Shown: in pieces, positions 3,203 to 22,697 of the stretch
Layout: each line of letters starts with the position of its first letter
How positions within the stretch are numbered: the stretch's first letter is position 1
NCBI GenBank assembly: GCA_006508105.1
Contig: QKPP01000171.1
Coordinates: forward strand, 1 to 42,319
From: Myxococcales bacterium FL481
GTDB taxonomy: Bacteria; Myxococcota_A; Polyangia; Nannocystales; Nannocystaceae
DNA length: 42,319 nt
Direction: 5' to 3'
The notes under the pieces: generated by a model
Database searches by the model: none
Told to the model about the DNA's origin: nothing
Seen by the model: the letters and a program-made list of their open reading frames with translations, nothing else
Program-made: the position numbers and the translations under genes

Positions 3203-5309
3203 AGTGATACTGGACCACGTCGCTGACAACCGCGGCTTGATCGGCCGCCCGTCGGCCGGAGACCTGAACCCCGATCTTGTACGTCCCCGGGGCGGAGAAG
3301 GTCCAATGATGGTGATCGTGCCCGCCGACCGGCATCTCGAAACGGTTGGCGCCGGTTTCGGTCAGCTGCGGATGGCTCGTGGAGATGTAGAAGTGGGGCA
3401 GAAACGGCAGCTGATAGACCGAGACCTGTCCGTTGGCGGGCATGTCGAACGAGACAAACTCGAACTGCAGCGGCCCGTCGAAGATCCCGGGCGGCACGCC
3501 CTCGGTTGAGATTCCCCAAAACGGCTGGAGCATCCCCAGGTTGTTTGCGCTCAGGTACCAAAACCCCGCGCCGGCGGGCATCCCCATCGGTTCGAAGGGA
3601 TCGGGGTCCATGCCGGTGAACTGTGGTCGCCCTCCGTTTGCAACCGAGTCGAGATAGGACGACACGGGCACGATGATGCAAATGTCCTGGGCTGGGTGCA
3701 GCGTGGCAGTCGCATCCGGAGCGCCAAAATCGGTGTAAACCTCAAGGTGGAGCCCGGTGGGAGGGGCGTAGTGGGCGTGCAGATCCCCATGACCGAAGCG
3801 GTAGTCGATGGTGCACGGTTCGCAGCCATCGGGCACGCCGTTTTGGTTGTCGTCCTTGAGGTCGTCGGAGCCCGGGCACGCGTCACAGCCGTCGGGGACG
3901 GTATCGAGGTCGCCGTCGAGCGCGTCGTCGAAGCCGGGGCATGCATCGCAGCCGTCGGGCACCGCGTCGAGGTCGCCGTCGAGCGCGTCGTCAAAGCCAG
4001 GGCAGGCATCGCATCCGTCCGGGATGACGTCGAGATCCCCGTTGAGCGCATCGTCGAAGCCGGGACAAGCGTCGCATCCGTCGGGCACCGCGTCGCCGTC
4101 GTGGTCGAGCGCGTCGTTGCTACCCGGGCAGCGGTCGCAGGCGTCGTCGATGCCGTCCCCGTCTTGATCCATGCCGATGGGCCTGTCGCACGGTTCAGCG
4201 ACGCCATCGCTGCTGTCATCGGCGGGGTCGTCCCCCGACGTGTGCTCTTGGCACGAGCTCGACAGTACGACTGGCACGATACCGGCGAGCCAGCTGGCTC
4301 GCGGTTTCCGGCGACAGCGACCTGCCGCCCGGCGGCGCCGAGCCACGGCGATCAGCGGGATCAGCCAGGCGAGCGCCGACAACGACGGCGCACGTTTGGC
4401 CACGGCGCAGCCTCCTCCCTCGCCGGCGGCCCCGTCATCGTCGCCCGTCTCGGGCCCGTCGTCATCGTCCCCCAGTCCCGTGTCCTCGGTCTCGGCCGGT
4501 GGAGGCTGCGTCGGCGGCGTGGGCACGAGGTCTGGACAAGCCACGGTGTTGCCGACCACATGACACCCCGCCGCGTCCGGTGTGGCCTCACAACCCAGCT
4601 CCAACTTGCTGGCGAGACAGGCCCGTGCGGCCTCGAGTTGCCAGTCTTCAACTTGGTGCCCGAGCACGAGGTACACCGCGGGCGACAGGGCCAGCGGCGG
4701 CAATTCGAGTCGAATCGGCGCGAGCACGACACCTGCCGTCGGGGGGCCCGTCGTGGCGTCGGGGAACCCTGCGGACAGGATGGAGAATGTGACGTGCTGG
4801 TGGAGTGAGCCGTCGGGATCCGTGGTGGCGAAACTAAAGCCCGTGACGTCGCCCTCGGCACCGGAGACGATCATCTCGCTGGCCGGCCCGACGGGGGTAC
4901 TCATCGATGTCCGCAAGGACTCGCCGGCAACCGGAGGGCCGAAGTGCGGCGTGCCCTGGCCGTCCCAGTACAGCAAATTGACCCCCAACCACTCGGGCGC
5001 GTGGCCGTGGAGACTGGCCTCGACCTGACCGGGTAACGGTTGGTACGGCGCCGGAGGAGCGGGGATGGCGTTGAATCCGGGATCGTTGCCCGTCGCGAGT
5101 TGGTCGCTCGTGAATTCGAGTTGCCGTTCGAATACGCGACGAGGAAGCTCGATCGCTCCCGAGCCGAACGAGAAGGACCCGATGGCAACCGCGGCTCCGT
5201 CGTTGACGAGCAAGATATCGGTATGCCCCGCGCGTGGGGCGGGCGGCCGAGCCGGAGACGAGGCGAGCAACCAGATGGTCGCTGGCGCGATGAGCCCGGC
5301 GGGGATCAT
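3186..5309 (-). CDS. Composite secreted protein: MYXO-CTERM protein fused in frame to a choice-of-anchor M lipoprotein
   Basis: Start chosen at the ATG overlapping the upstream TGA by ATGA (5306-5309), which gives 707 residues and a signal peptide (MIPAGLIAPATIWLLASSPA). Residues ~27-245 resemble the product of the gene at 6178: HTDILLV opening, NPGFNA-like motif, PPAPY, LYWDG and a His-containing SLHQHVTF segment. Then comes an acidic linker and GGGCAVAKR plus a hydrophobic helix and Arg cluster (Cys codon 4407-4409), a canonical MYXO-CTERM tail that should end the protein. No stop follows. The frame runs on into RRKPRASWLAGIVPVVLSSSCQ, a lipoprotein signal with Cys at 4251-4253 (a GTG at 4346 could start it), then five thrombospondin type 3-like repeats and a choice-of-anchor M domain ending GGHDHHHWTFSAPGTY. 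This looks like two ancestral genes joined by stop loss; they may still yield two products. Confidence 0.8.
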   Translation of the reverse strand: MIPAGLIAPATIWLLASSPARPPAPRAGHTDILLVNDGAAVAIGSFSFGSGAIELPRRVFERQLEFTSDQLATGNDPGFNAIPAPPAPYQPLPGQVEASLHGHAPEWLGVNLLYWDGQGTPHFGPPVAGESLRTSMSTPVGPASEMIVSGAEGDVTGFSFATTDPDGSLHQHVTFSILSAGFPDATTGPPTAGVVLAPIRLELPPLALSPAVYLVLGHQVEDWQLEAARACLASKLELGCEATPDAAGCHVVGNTVACPDLVPTPPTQPPPAETEDTGLGDDDDGPETGDDDGAAGEGGGCAVAKRAPSLSALAWLIPLIAVARRRRAAGRCRRKPRASWLAGIVPVVLSSSCQEHTSGDDPADDSSDGVAEPCDRPIGMDQDGDGIDDACDRCPGSNDALDHDGDAVPDGCDACPGFDDALNGDLDVIPDGCDACPGFDDALDGDLDAVPDGCDACPGFDDALDGDLDTVPDGCDACPGSDDLKDDNQNGVPDGCEPCTIDYRFGHGDLHAHYAPPTGLHLEVYTDFGAPDATATLHPAQDICIIVPVSSYLDSVANGGRPQFTGMDPDPFEPMGMPAGAGFWYLSANNLGMLQPFWGISTEGVPPGIFDGPLQFEFVSFDMPANGQVSVYQLPFLPHFYISTSHPQLTETGANRFEMPVGGHDHHHWTFSAPGTYKIGVQVSGRRAADQAAVVSDVVQYHFIVEP
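3825..4139 (-). repeat. Five 63-bp tandem units coding thrombospondin type 3-like repeats
   Basis: Five consecutive 21-residue units of the form CDACPGFDDALDGDLDAVPDG are encoded; the central three are nearly identical at protein and DNA level. The Asp spacing and paired Cys fit calcium-binding thrombospondin type 3 repeats. The repeat forms the stalk between the lipoprotein anchor and the choice-of-anchor M head of the composite protein. The DNA identity suggests recent unit duplication and makes copy-number variation between strains likely. Confidence 0.85.
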
Positions 5310-17064: not shown

Positions 17065-18192
17065 CTATCGTGTCCCGGCCGCGGTCGGGTAACCGCGTTC
17101 TACCCAGACGTTGAACCCCTCGTCGAGGACGCGCACGTTTGTGAACCCAGCCCCGAGCAACACGTCTGCGGCCGCTTCGGACTCGGCGTGAGGGCAGGCG
17201 CAGTAGGTCACGATCCAAACGTCGCGCGGGATCTCGTCGAGATGATCCTCAACCTCGTAGAACGGTAGCGATGCGGCGCCTTGGATGTGCCGGGTCACGA
17301 AGTCGGCTGGAGGACGAGCATCGAGAATCAGCAGCTTGGCTTCAGCGTCCAACGCAGCCTTGAGGGTATCGACCGATACGAAGCGTGGGTCGGCGTCGAA
17401 TACGGGGTCGGTTCCCATCGGGTTGACGAGCTTGTCTCCGTAGTCGCTGAGCTCCGGAGTTTGTACCCAGCTCCAAGCGCGGATCATGGCGACGACGTCG
17501 TCGAGTTCCTGGCGGGTCAGCACGTGCTCATACGCGGGCATCGGAGTGCCGGGGCGCCCCTTGGCAACGGCATACTTGAGATAGCCATCTGTCACGTGAT
17601 CGAGGAAATTGGGCGCGGTCACACTCATGAACTGACCCCCTTCCCCGTCTTCCCCGTGGCAGTCTTGGCAGTAGACCTGCCAGACTGGCCACCCGCGCGA
17701 GGCGAGGCCGTCGACTTCGATCGCCTCCGTGTCGACGGCGTCCATCGTCGCCCATGAGCGCATCAATCGGACTAGACGGTGGATCGCGCTGGGTTGCAGC
17801 GGGCCCGCCCGATTGACGCTCCACGCGGACATCGGCGTGTCGACGCGACCGTGTGCGATGGCGTCGAACAACATGCTGTCGCTGGCGCTCGCGAGGAAGT
17901 TGGGGTGGGCCAACGCGTTGGCCCCGTCAGCTTGGTAGCCCTCACCGGTTTCACCGTGGCATATCGCGCAATACTTGGCGTAGTCCGCCCGAGCGAGCGC
18001 GAGGTCGTCACTGTCGGTCCCAGGGGGGGAGCCACCGTTGGGCGCGACCAGTGGCGCGTCGGCTCCGGTGGCCGGGGTCGCACCGGCAGAGTCGTGGGCG
18101 CCTTCGGGCTGGGGGCAGCCGAGCGGGGCGGCCCCGGCCAGCAGGGTCCACGCCGTGGCGGCGGTTGCCATTGGAACTCTAGTGTTTCTCAT
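17065..18192 (-). CDS. Dihaem cytochrome c-rhodanese fusion lipoprotein
   Basis: Start ATG at 18192 overlaps the selenoprotein stop by ATGA; 375 residues. The lipoprotein signal is MATAATAWTLLAGAAPLGC. Two cytochrome c domains follow: YCAICHGETGEG and YCQDCHGEDGEGG (CxxCH haem sites), each with a downstream candidate Met axial ligand (for example TPMSAW and TPMPAYEHVL). The last ~110 residues are a rhodanese domain: LLILDARPPADFVTRHIQGA, then VTYCACPHAESE with the active-site Cys, and GFNVWVERGYP. The protein would sit in the periplasm or on the outer membrane, able to carry electrons and to transfer sulfane sulfur (or selenium). Tight coupling to a U-x-x-C thioredoxin-like selenoprotein suggests a shared redox task; this is inference. 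Confidence 0.9.
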   Translation of the reverse strand: MRNTRVPMATAATAWTLLAGAAPLGCPQPEGAHDSAGATPATGADAPLVAPNGGSPPGTDSDDLALARADYAKYCAICHGETGEGYQADGANALAHPNFLASASDSMLFDAIAHGRVDTPMSAWSVNRAGPLQPSAIHRLVRLMRSWATMDAVDTEAIEVDGLASRGWPVWQVYCQDCHGEDGEGGQFMSVTAPNFLDHVTDGYLKYAVAKGRPGTPMPAYEHVLTRQELDDVVAMIRAWSWVQTPELSDYGDKLVNPMGTDPVFDADPRFVSVDTLKAALDAEAKLLILDARPPADFVTRHIQGAASLPFYEVEDHLDEIPRDVWIVTYCACPHAESEAAADVLLGAGFTNVRVLDEGFNVWVERGYPTAAGTR

Positions 18193-19361
18193 CGCTCGAG
18201 CACCTCGATCAGGCGACCCTTGACGTAGTCGTAGCCCGCCTCGGTGGCCAGCTTGATCGACGGCCCGCCTTTGGCGGGCAGGTACGCCGCTAGCTTGCCG
18301 TCGCGGTCGTAGATGTAAAAGTCGTCCTTGTTGCCTTCGTGCATGTCCCAGCCCTCGGTCTCCGACGTGTCCTGGAACAGGGGAAACGAGCAGCGGGCCG
18401 AGAGCTTCTTGCGATCGTCGAGCGCGTCGATCGAGTTGATCGCCGCGAACTCGACGTCCTCGTAGCCGGCTTGACGAAAGTCGAGGCGCAACCGTTCCAG
18501 GCCACCGGCCTGGGCTTGGCAAAACCCTCACCAGCCTTTGAGCAAGGCGACGAGCGTCACCTGCCCGCGAAACGCCTCGAGGCCGTAGACTTGTCCTGCA
18601 CCGCAGCTGAGCGGCTGATAGTCCTTGAGTTGCCAGGTCGGTGCCGGCGTGCCCACGCAGTACGCGGGGGGATCGTCGCTCTCACACGGGTCGCCATCGC
18701 CATCGCCATCTCCGTCGCCATCTCCGTCGCCGTCGCCATCGCCGTGTCCGTCGCCATCGCCGTCGCCATCGCCGTCTCCGTCGCCATCGCCGTCGCCATG
18801 CCCGTCGGTCCCGGTCGCGGTGACCTCGGTGTCGCCGGTTCCAGTCCCACCGTCCGTGTCCCCCGAGTCAGTCCCGTCGCCATCACCGGTCGCGCTGCTC
18901 GAACCGGGCAGCGCCGTGTCCGTCTGCGGGGTGCTCGTCGCGTCTTCGCCGGTGGCCGTCGTTCCCGTCTCCGTCGAACTCGTGCCTGTCGCCGTGTCTT
19001 CGGGCCCGGGCAGGGCGTCGTTGCGCCACCACGGGAGGGTTGTTACGCCCGACTTCGACGGGTCCTGCCCACGTGTGGACGCCCTGCGTCGTGCCTTCGG
19101 ATCGACGCCCACACAGTCGTCCGCTTGCGATTCCCCGGTGGCGCTGGAGTGCGTCCCGGTTGGGTCGTTGCCGGCCGTCGACGCCGTCGGTTCGCCCAAC
19201 GCCGACTCGGCTGTGGATGATTGCGACGACGTATCATCGTCCGCGTAGATCGTGCAGGCCAGTGCGGCGCTAGTCAGGGTGACCCCTGCTAACCGGCGTG
19301 CAGACAGTCGTGCCGCCGCGCCGAAACGGGTGGAGAGGGCTCGTAGGGTCGACGGCGGCAT
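18189..19361 (-). CDS. Selenoprotein P-like lipoprotein with in-frame UGA (Sec) in a U-x-x-C thioredoxin motif
   Basis: Start ATG at 19361 gives a lipoprotein signal ending SAALAC. Then comes a Ser/Thr/Gly-rich linker with a long Gly-Asp repeat, and from about residue 245 a thioredoxin-like domain: VGTPAPTWQLKDYQP, GQVTLVALLKGW, TGA (18528-18530, residue 278), GFCQAQAGGLERL. The frame continues without a break to 18189, with GYEDVEFAAIN, FPLFQDTSETEGWD and NKDDFYIYDRDGKLAAYLP. Total 390 residues if UGA is read as selenocysteine. The same landmarks in the same order occur in the N-terminal domain of animal selenoprotein P (VTVVALLQAS-U-YLC, KDDFLIYDR), so homology is very likely. A SECIS-like hairpin follows the UGA. 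Standard gene calling would split it into a truncated lipoprotein and a 100-residue hypothetical. Likely role: extracytoplasmic thiol/peroxide redox, coupled to the overlapping cytochrome-rhodanese gene. Confidence 0.9.
18497..18530 (-). promoter_or_regulatory. Bacterial SECIS element after the Sec UGA
   Basis: On the minus strand the UGA (18530-18528) is followed by CCAGGCC-GGT-GGCCTGG, a perfect 7-bp stem with a three-base GGU loop (stem 18497-18503 and 18507-18513, loop 18504-18506). The loop starts 22 bases after the UGA and its first bases are G, which meets the described bacterial SECIS rules for SelB binding. The hairpin lies inside the coding sequence, as expected in bacteria. SelB recognition is inferred from structure alone. 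Confidence 0.8.
18690..18815 (-). repeat. Hexanucleotide microsatellite coding a Gly-Asp linker
   Basis: About twenty units of a GGCGAC/GGCGAT-type hexamer encode an almost pure Gly-Asp run with two His interruptions, just before the CESDDPPAYC start of the thioredoxin-like domain. Such repeats slip in replication, so linker length probably varies between strains. It may bind calcium or simply act as a flexible stalk. Confidence 0.85.
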
Positions 19362-21524: not shown

Positions 21525-22697
21525 TTAGCGGTGCGACTGGCGAGCGTCGATGCCCGGCGGGCGATTCGGCCGGTCGTCGGGCGCCGGTGCCTCGGGCGAT
21601 TCGGCCGCTTGGCGAGGCGCAGGGGTCCCGGGAGATTCGGCCGGTTGGAGCGGCGCGAGGGTCTCGGGAGATTCGGACGGTTGGGGGGGCGCGAGGGTCT
21701 CGGGTTCGGTGGCGGCGGGCGGCCGATGTCCGCCGCGCTCGGGTGGCTCGAAGGCATCGATGCGCCCCCCCGGGGCGATCGTCGGGGAGGACTGGGGTCG
21801 AGATGGCGTGCGCAGATCGAGGCGCTCGTCGGCCGGTCCAGTGTGCGGGGGCCCGGACAACGGGTAGGGCACGCGGTAGTCGACCGCGACCGCGTGCGTC
21901 TCGTCGATGCGGACGGCGGCCCGACGCACGCGGGGTCGCGCAGACTCGGGGTCCCGGATCGTCCGTGGTGGCAGCTCGAATGCAACTCGGCCCAGCTCGT
22001 CTGTCCTCGCCGGGATCCGGTAGTCGTCGACGACGAGTTCGACGTCGGCTTGCCGCAGGGGGACCACCGGACGCGCGCAGCGACGAGGCTCGCCGATATC
22101 GACGCGGTAGGCATCAGCGTAGTAGGTGTGGTCGAACGAGCGAGTCGTGTCGTAGATCGCCGAGGCCAAGAGCAAAGCGCCGATCGACGCGAACACGGTG
22201 CCCACGCGGCGCCCGGCGGCGGTGTCATAGACCACGGCGCCCGACTGATTGCGGTAGCGCGTGCCAAACAGCTCCGGTCGGGTAAACGCAAACACCGAAA
22301 ACCCCGCCAACCCGGCCCCAATGATGTACTCCCACGCCAGTGTGCTGTCGGGACGATTGTGGATCGTCTCGATCCGTACCACTGGCGTGTGCACCAACCC
22401 TTTGCACTGCCGGTGCTCCGCCAGATCGACGGACAGCCGGTCACCCTGCTGGTGCCACGTCGCGGTGTACTGTCGGTGCGCCACGACACGGCCGGCGGGT
22501 TCGAGCTCACGGGCCGGGGCCGGTCGAGCCACGACTTGAACCGTGGAACTCACCCGGATCTGGGCACATCCGGCGGAGCTGGCCGCGGCCAAGCCAAGGG
22601 CACCAAGCCGTACGGTGAGCCGCGCGCGAGCGATGAACCGTCGCGGCCGGCCGAGTTGCCGCTGACGACCGGTGGGGCGCGGATCGTGACCACTCAC
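21525..22697 (-). CDS. Lipoprotein with Pro-rich repetitive C-terminus, unknown function
   Basis: GTG at 22697 follows the cyaY stop by 14 bp and gives 390 residues; the frame extends further upstream over cyaY but is not needed. Lipoprotein signal LGALGLAAASSAGC. Residues ~40-150 include PDSTLAWEYIIGAGLAGFSV and GTVFASIGALLLASAIYD, two hydrophobic segments, so the protein may also span a membrane. A middle domain has VPLRQADVELVVDDYRIPARTDELGRVAF, which looks like a small beta domain that accepts default values. The C-terminus has PxESPETLAP-type Pro/Glu repeats, four or so copies. No family recognised. Confidence 0.75.
   Translation of the reverse strand: MSGHDPRPTGRQRQLGRPRRFIARARLTVRLGALGLAAASSAGCAQIRVSSTVQVVARPAPARELEPAGRVVAHRQYTATWHQQGDRLSVDLAEHRQCKGLVHTPVVRIETIHNRPDSTLAWEYIIGAGLAGFSVFAFTRPELFGTRYRNQSGAVVYDTAAGRRVGTVFASIGALLLASAIYDTTRSFDHTYYADAYRVDIGEPRRCARPVVPLRQADVELVVDDYRIPARTDELGRVAFELPPRTIRDPESARPRVRRAAVRIDETHAVAVDYRVPYPLSGPPHTGPADERLDLRTPSRPQSSPTIAPGGRIDAFEPPERGGHRPPAATEPETLAPPQPSESPETLAPLQPAESPGTPAPRQAAESPEAPAPDDRPNRPPGIDARQSHR

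Follow-up and report, generated by a model that had tools for sequence, protein, structure and literature searches.

Does a TGA codon that falls on the redox-active residue of a myxobacterial gene end that gene, or is it read as selenocysteine (Sec)? The question is raised by a locus in a 42,319-nucleotide stretch of Myxococcales bacterium FL481 (contig QKPP01000171.1, positions 1 to 42,319), which was analyzed as a whole and is called the window below. A first-pass annotation, made from the letters of the window alone, had described two open frames in the same phase at 18189..19361, joined by a single TGA, and had proposed that together they encode a bacterial surface lipoprotein related to animal selenoprotein P (SELENOP). 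We conclude that the product of this gene is almost certainly a Sec-containing protein with a SelP_N domain. The best overall explanation, which we hold with good confidence, is a Sec-containing SelP_N redox lipoprotein with a proposed partner unit.

One in-frame UGA interrupts a SelP_N gene

The two frames, their junction at the redox residue and their coordinates proved right; the strand, which the annotation had omitted, is minus. The SelP-like selenoprotein gene (18189..19361) runs from an ATG at 19361 to a terminal TGA at 18191..18189 and encodes 390 residues plus the stop. Its sole frame break is the TGA at 18528..18530 (minus strand, read 18530..18528), which stands at residue 278 and is followed by 112 further residues. 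This codon takes position 1 of a UxxC redox motif (U-G-F-C) and aligns with Cys in relatives. The standard code splits such genes in two, as it did in the window's own list of open frames. Inspection by eye revealed no strong ribosome-binding site upstream of the ATG. The landmarks of the SELENOP N-terminal domain that had been named all occur, in order, in the translation (TPAPTW, VTLVALL, U-GFC, QAGGLERLR, FPLFQ, and KDDFYIYDR).

A search of Pfam with the joined frame supported the family assignment. SelP_N (PF04592) matched across the TGA with an E-value of 1.9e-17 and 63.8 bits (cut-off 23.2), and the runner-up was AhpC-TSA with 3.1e-6 and 27.6 bits (cut-off 26). The domain of the window protein taken alone scored 67.5 bits against SelP_N versus 30.7 bits against the next family. 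The SelP_N domain lies at 18285..18650 (minus strand), and its alignment covers only profile positions 7-123 of 234; the protein stops 31 residues later. Two NCBIfam models were also compared. The window protein scored 53-56 bits with NF053656 (TUGYCR), under the cut-off of 100, and 19.2-21.5 bits with NF047696, on the TlpA/ResA/CcmG side, for which the cut-off is 230. Membership of the window protein in TUGYCR was rejected, since it falls under the cut-off and in a separate clade.

Related genes carry UGA or Cys at one aligned site

Of 317 genomes in the class, 21 gave a SelP_N match, which passed the cut-off in 18; in a sample of 377 genomes from the phylum the figures were 45 and 42. None of the 14 control genomes had a match. 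In Planctomycetota the domain occurred in 7/392 genomes, once with TGA; the other six proteins, being TlpA-like, do not count among the SelP-like rows. Named genomes, when scanned, yielded 27 loci, mostly titled Polyangia, Myxococcales, or Deltaproteobacteria, together with two Verrucomicrobiota loci (Cys) and one from Planctomycetia (UGA). Isolates of Enhygromyxa salina (Nannocystaceae) contributed two SelP-like loci, both with Cys, whose domains recur unchanged in two genomes from the family group of the window genome.

Eighty-five distinct rows were sorted, with L134 and L116 excluded, into 68 SelP-like rows (more than 100 bits and U or C at the site), nine TUGYCR, and six TlpA-like rows. 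The 68 SelP-like rows, which include the window gene, carry UGA in 47 cases and Cys in 21 at one aligned site, a ratio that is not a frequency because 18 of the 19 regions in one fetched batch had been picked for holding a TGA. The genome of the window itself has three SelP_N genes, two with TGA (the window gene and L002) and one with Cys (L003). At least nine changes between UGA and Cys are needed on a quick tree, one of them inside this genome, where the Cys copy is the closest relative of the window gene (starred support).

The TGA is thus no chance break: the paralog L002 has the same join, and 45 further distinct rows carry the TGA with a conserved hairpin behind it. For these reasons a one-off sequence error at residue 278 appears unlikely. 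The ratio of nonsynonymous to synonymous substitution after the UGA was 0.14-0.63 in seven of the eight pairs tested, which were those with an unsaturated synonymous distance, and shows that the sequence past the UGA is under purifying selection.

Two observations on single rows stand beside these counts. The locus G901:C11 was flagged with two TGA codons; we rejected it as a multi-Sec relative, taking the second TGA as the terminal stop, and its aligned domain has one Sec. A divergent pair (L150:1968-2426 and L151:1968-2426), which branches off basally to the other SelP-like rows, has the motif HGY-U-PTC and no KDD motif. L150 matches Redoxin and has no SelP_N match; it was counted among the 68 with its neighbor L151, and the pair is possibly a further selenoprotein subfamily.

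A covarying hairpin follows the UGA

A bacterial selenocysteine insertion sequence (SECIS) folds as a stem-loop no more than a few tens of nucleotides (nt) away from the UGA and carries a G in its apical loop. Such a hairpin is present in the window gene at 18497..18513 (minus strand), with a 7 bp stem (CCAGGCC/GGCCUGG), a GGU loop 21 nt past the UGA, and a folding energy of -12.1 kcal/mol. A stem of 5 bp or more, closed by a three-base loop starting GG, occurs in 47/47 UGA genes versus 1/21 Cys genes. The loop starts 17 nt after the UGA in 42 genes, 25 nt after it in four, and 21 nt after it in the window gene. Against random synonymous recodings, the best G-loop hairpin stood out for its stability (p < 0.05) in 43 of the 47 UGA genes versus one of the 21 Cys genes.

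The five inner stem pairs form in every member of a set of 26 UGA genes assembled earlier. The covariation score of the stem, computed on 24 distinct sequences, was 0.386 against a shuffled mean of 0.113; none of 500 shuffles scored as high, and the score did not exceed 0.122 when the alignment was slid. The percentage of paired cells and the count of double changes were also above all 500 shuffles. The window gene (L001) was excluded from this covariation alignment (A4) as its hairpin lies in another register. Together, the pattern of the hairpin and its covariation bear the mark of a bacterial SECIS and a genuine selenocysteine.

Several points weigh against this reading. In the window gene itself, the loop position of +21 is unique among the 47, the stability of the hairpin is only modestly unusual (it was reached in 32 of 2000 synonymous shuffles), and a plain fold of the 69 nt after the UGA is ordinary (z -1.1). 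In the set of 26, the stretches had been trimmed so that the loops line up, and two of the five pair measures did not rise above the shuffles (pairs with a double change, 334/500; pair types, 100/500).

The commonest form of the hairpin, TCC CAG GCT GGG, encodes S-Q-A-G; the RNA signal therefore appears to constrain the protein segment just past the active site. The TUGYCR genes (L108-L117) have a different hairpin (GCCAG-UUU/UUC-GGC), placed roughly as far behind the UGA. It was more stable than synonymous shuffles in seven of nine genes, and a GG triloop was found in 0/9.

The genome encodes the selenocysteine machinery

The annotation had pointed to selA, selB, selC, and selD as genes to look for in the same genome, and all four are present in the source assembly (6.4 Mb, 322 contigs, 93% complete). 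The selC gene for tRNA-Sec scored 67.9 bits and has the anticodon UCA, selB (309 bits) and selA (416 bits) share one contig, and selD scored 334 bits. Across the class, selB was over the cut-off in 9/9 genomes with the UGA form versus 5/10 Cys-only genomes; this comparison took in 19 of the 21 SelP_N genomes and excluded two with an off-domain match only. Among 18 further genomes, reached through 18 of the 27 named loci, it was over the cut-off in 11/14 with the UGA form and 2/4 with the Cys form. Three of 23 UGA-form genomes therefore have no selB over the cut-off, which counts against the Sec reading. One of them (G324) falls just under it with a C-terminal piece, and the best scores in the other two, the metagenome assemblies G332 and G333, were 188 and 131 bits.

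Two more genes of this genome have an in-frame TGA. In selD (L021, G000:C138:16690-17625, minus strand) it lies near the N-terminus, in GGGU-AAK, and selD is probably itself a selenoprotein. A TUGYCR-family gene (NF053656; G000:C12:20441-20863, minus strand) scored 150.5 bits against the cut-off of 100 and is likely another.

These genes also call for the Sec machinery, as would be expected if it served them and the UGA of the window gene were a real stop in a decayed, split, or wrongly sequenced gene from which no selenocysteine is made. We regard this as scarcely credible. UGA stands at one aligned site in 47 distinct rows, the hairpin separates UGA from Cys genes almost completely, the stem covaries, and selection acts on the codons after the UGA. 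On the 47 hairpin-bearing UGA rows we rejected the plain stop and the pseudogene.

The predicted product is an exported thioredoxin-fold protein

An AlphaFold2 model built on a 26-row alignment reached a mean predicted local distance difference test (pLDDT) score of 96.6. Foldseek matched this model to ResA (E 1.5e-10, template-modeling scores 0.71/0.80), and the other near solved folds were oxidoreductases of the TlpA/CcmG type. The modeled fold is thioredoxin-like, nearest to ResA, TlpA, and CcmG. Because these are its nearest solved folds, the U-x-x-C motif is placed by the model at the C-x-x-C position of extracytoplasmic thiol-disulfide oxidoreductases. A second Cys pair lies outside the active site, at C24 and C95 of the window domain (SCG... 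and DRC-xFP). By eye its members tend to be kept or lost together across alignment A1, with exceptions, and they possibly form a structural disulfide.

The first-pass annotation had called the product a surface lipoprotein. At 19254..19361 (minus strand) we find the sequence pattern of a signal peptide with a lipobox-like end (...LTSAALAC, Cys36), and it is on this pattern that a lipoprotein is predicted. A simple rule detected such a pattern in 40 of the 68 family rows, among which not every start site is certain and some loci are truncated. Between lipobox and domain, a Gly-Asp repeat linker at 18690..18806 (minus strand) was recognized as a tandem repeat and in the translation.

The SelP_N domain is shared with animal selenoprotein P

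The annotation had linked this protein to the animal selenium-transport protein and had expected one Sec and no Sec-rich tail. The expectation was correct, as the translation has a single internal UGA and lacks both a Sec-rich C-terminal tail and a His-rich, heparin-binding region. The link holds for the redox N-terminal domain; selenium transport by the bacterial protein is without support, because the Sec-rich tail is absent.

The comparison with human SELENOP that had been suggested was made with a human sequence that is not a database copy, and its figures are provisional. A profile of the 68 bacterial rows matched its N-terminal region with 77.9 bits (E 2.9e-21 for 100,000 sequences), and none of 2000 shuffles was reported. 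BLASTP of the window domain against the same sequence gave 32.5% identity over 126 columns (E 8.7e-16 for a database size of 100 million). A profile of nine TUGYCR proteins gave no match to it, and one of six TlpA-like planctomycete proteins gave 16.5 bits. No solved SELENOP structure was among 60 of the 171 chains. Sequence comparison thus makes homology of the domain in the bacterial family and SELENOP well supported.

Could the likeness instead be that of any thioredoxin fold, with the SelP_N label incidental? The wider family gives this view something to stand on. Redoxin and AhpC-TSA models each match 25 of the 26 members of alignment A1, from which L040 and L041, among 28 places, had been kept out because only the C-terminal part of the SelP_N model matched. 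Among 30 family rows scanned singly, the window included, SelP_N was not the top family in six; Redoxin or AhpC-TSA scored higher in five of these, and the sixth was L150. Nor does the tree settle the placement of SELENOP. We nevertheless consider generic likeness improbable. SelP_N matches 26/26 members of A1 at E <= 0.01 and is the top family in 24 of the 30 rows, its lead in the window domain is wide, and the reciprocal match to SELENOP is far stronger than that of the TUGYCR or TlpA-like profiles.

In the tree, from which the long-branch rows L038, L039, and L070 had been removed, SELENOP forms a long branch and joins the TlpA outgroup at a support of 59, and none of three alternative placements was rejected. 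The tree supports no particular direction or route of descent for the SELENOP domain. Lobanov et al. (2008; PMC2397514) describe the N-terminal domain of SELENOP as distantly related to TlpA/ResA and call the origin of the protein unclear, and an algal survey (PMC7539508) gives SELENOP as unique to multicellular organisms. The short, single-Sec Sepp1b is presented as the parental gene of vertebrate SELENOP in PMC5133445. We offer, tentatively and as a scenario that we think rather unlikely as it stands, that a redox protein of the SelP-like family, bacterial, extracytoplasmic, and with a single Sec, was the ancestor of the N-terminal domain of SELENOP. An early animal would have acquired it and kept the Sec, the recoding signal would have moved from an in-frame hairpin to the 3' untranslated region (UTR), and the transport tail would have been added later. 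If true, the animal selenium carrier started as a bacterial redox lipoprotein.

A term search found the names selenoprotein P, SelP, and SELENOP in neither the deep-Sep paper nor a 2022 review, and "selenoprotein P" and PF04592 are absent from the main text, as far as accessible, of a 2026 prokaryotic selenoprotein catalogue (PMC13188914). No report of a bacterial selenoprotein P was among the best-ranked literature matches, judged by titles and abstract starts and mostly without subscription journals and preprints. PF04592 may already include bacterial members. The SelP-like genes are a new bacterial branch of SelP_N selenoproteins, not a system of a new kind. Since it shares the domain and the Sec site and has a strong reciprocal match, this bacterial family makes the origin of SELENOP and the redox function of its N-terminal domain testable, and it may inform the redox role of the N-terminal half of SELENOP in animals. 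It also adds a selenoprotein family with a covarying recoding signal and at least nine Sec/Cys exchanges to compare, and its linked cytochrome-rhodanese gene hints at function.

A cytochrome-rhodanese gene is a candidate partner

Directly downstream of the SelP-like gene, at 17065..18192 on the same minus strand, lies a gene whose protein combines a rhodanese domain with two c-type cytochrome domains. The ATG of this gene shares bases with the SelP-like stop (ATGA). Of the 63 rows that could be tested, having at least 1200 bp of downstream sequence, 21 (11 UGA and 10 Cys) have this neighbor directly downstream in the same orientation, among them all three copies of the window genome. Across 32 partner proteins, neither of the two CxxCH motifs varies, nor does a later Met that goes with each of them; 31 keep the rhodanese C-x-C pair. 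The Met residues are probable heme ligands. A literature search for cytochrome, rhodanese, and selenoprotein together turned up nothing relevant by title.

Together, in our reading, the two proteins form a unit for selenium-dependent thiol/persulfide redox chemistry outside the cytoplasm. UGA-278 would be recoded to selenocysteine by SelB, selenocysteyl-tRNA, and the hairpin just past it, and the product would be exported and is predicted to be anchored, probably as a lipoprotein. The thioredoxin-fold domain with its U-x-x-C site would be carried on the flexible Gly-Asp linker. Sec-278 would attack a disulfide, persulfide, or peroxide, and Cys-281 would resolve the selenenylsulfide; the likely chemistry would be thiol/disulfide or persulfide exchange. 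Because of the rhodanese domain, we favor thiol/persulfide redox coupled to the cytochrome. Where co-encoded, the cytochrome-rhodanese protein would act as redox partner and swap sulfur or electrons with U-x-x-C through the C-x-C-P-H loop of its rhodanese domain or through its hemes, and the pair would link extracytoplasmic sulfur (or selenium) redox to respiration. That the neighbor is a functional partner has, in our view, an even chance of being correct, and any particular substrate is doubtful.

What weighs against the partnership is the distribution of both genes. In 42 of the 63 testable rows the neighbor is not directly downstream. With members in 111 of the 306 class genomes, the diheme cytochrome c-rhodanese family is commoner than SelP_N, and its gene is often in settings other than beside a SelP-like gene. 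Inspection by eye of 15 partner loci in genomes without SelP_N, 14 of which gave frames under a third-position GC filter, found no recurring neighbor. Since the family is widespread, in other settings, and without SelP_N, the diheme cytochrome c-rhodanese protein has a role of its own, for which it sometimes enlists the SelP-like protein.

The same distribution bears on a different role for the SelP-like protein, that of a dedicated maturation factor reducing the CxxCH cysteines of the neighbor (or its rhodanese CxC) during assembly and not in catalysis. Its best structural matches, ResA and the CcmG/TlpA type, suggest such a role; PMC2397514 assigns TlpA and ResA to the maturation of cytochrome c, and the neighbor offers two CxxCH motifs and a CxC site as targets. 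Most of these cytochromes, however, need no SelP-like factor, given 111/306 class genomes with the cytochrome family against 21/317 with SelP_N, and the majority of testable SelP-like rows lack the neighbor downstream. We judge this role to be possible and on the unlikely side.

We put in the same low range a selenium-dependent peroxidase, in which U-x-x-C would reduce hydroperoxides outside the cytoplasm. N-terminal forms of SELENOP are reported to have peroxidase activity when coupled to thioredoxin reductase (PMC5133445), and the SelP_N homology and the AhpC-TSA and Redoxin matches across A1 would fit such an activity, but the best folds are those of disulfide oxidoreductases. The redox unit formed with the cytochrome-rhodanese protein remains the reading that we prefer.

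Two repeat arrays were seen elsewhere in the window. A 63-bp tandem array at 3861-4146 looks Asp-rich when read on the minus strand (DGD-VPDGCD repeats), and by this reading the repeats resemble thrombospondin type 3 repeats. An array of about four 36-bp copies lies within overlapping open frames at 21558-21704.

Comparison with known systems

Among solved folds the closest are TlpA, ResA, and CcmG, membrane-anchored C-x-x-C enzymes as described in PMC2397514. The bacterial SelP-like proteins differ from them in having Sec for the first Cys and SelP-type motifs (KDDFxIYD), and the window protein scores far under the cut-off of that family. TUGYCR proteins (NF053656) are likewise bacterial and of the same phylum, and most of the members listed carry UGA at the corresponding active-site position, followed by a hairpin. 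They form, however, a separate clade (support 100) with a different hairpin loop, and the one TUGYCR protein scanned had no SelP_N match. Redoxin- and peroxiredoxin-like UxxC selenoproteins of bacteria (PF08534, PF00578) share the UxxC motif and the thioredoxin fold. Reviews list such proteins, and redoxin-type UxxC selenoproteins are in the 2026 catalogue (PMC13188914); some SelP-like genes could have been counted under them earlier.

With SELENOP the bacterial proteins have in common one U-x-x-C in a thioredoxin-fold N-terminal domain, a predicted export signal, and the sequence match over profile positions 7-123. They differ in their in-frame hairpin, where the animal SECIS lies in the 3' UTR, in their lipobox-like signal, Gly-Asp linker, and linked cytochrome-rhodanese gene, and in lacking the Cys-rich, His-rich, and Sec-rich regions. 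Their architecture resembles that of the short animal form, Sepp1b (SelPb), which like them has a single Sec.

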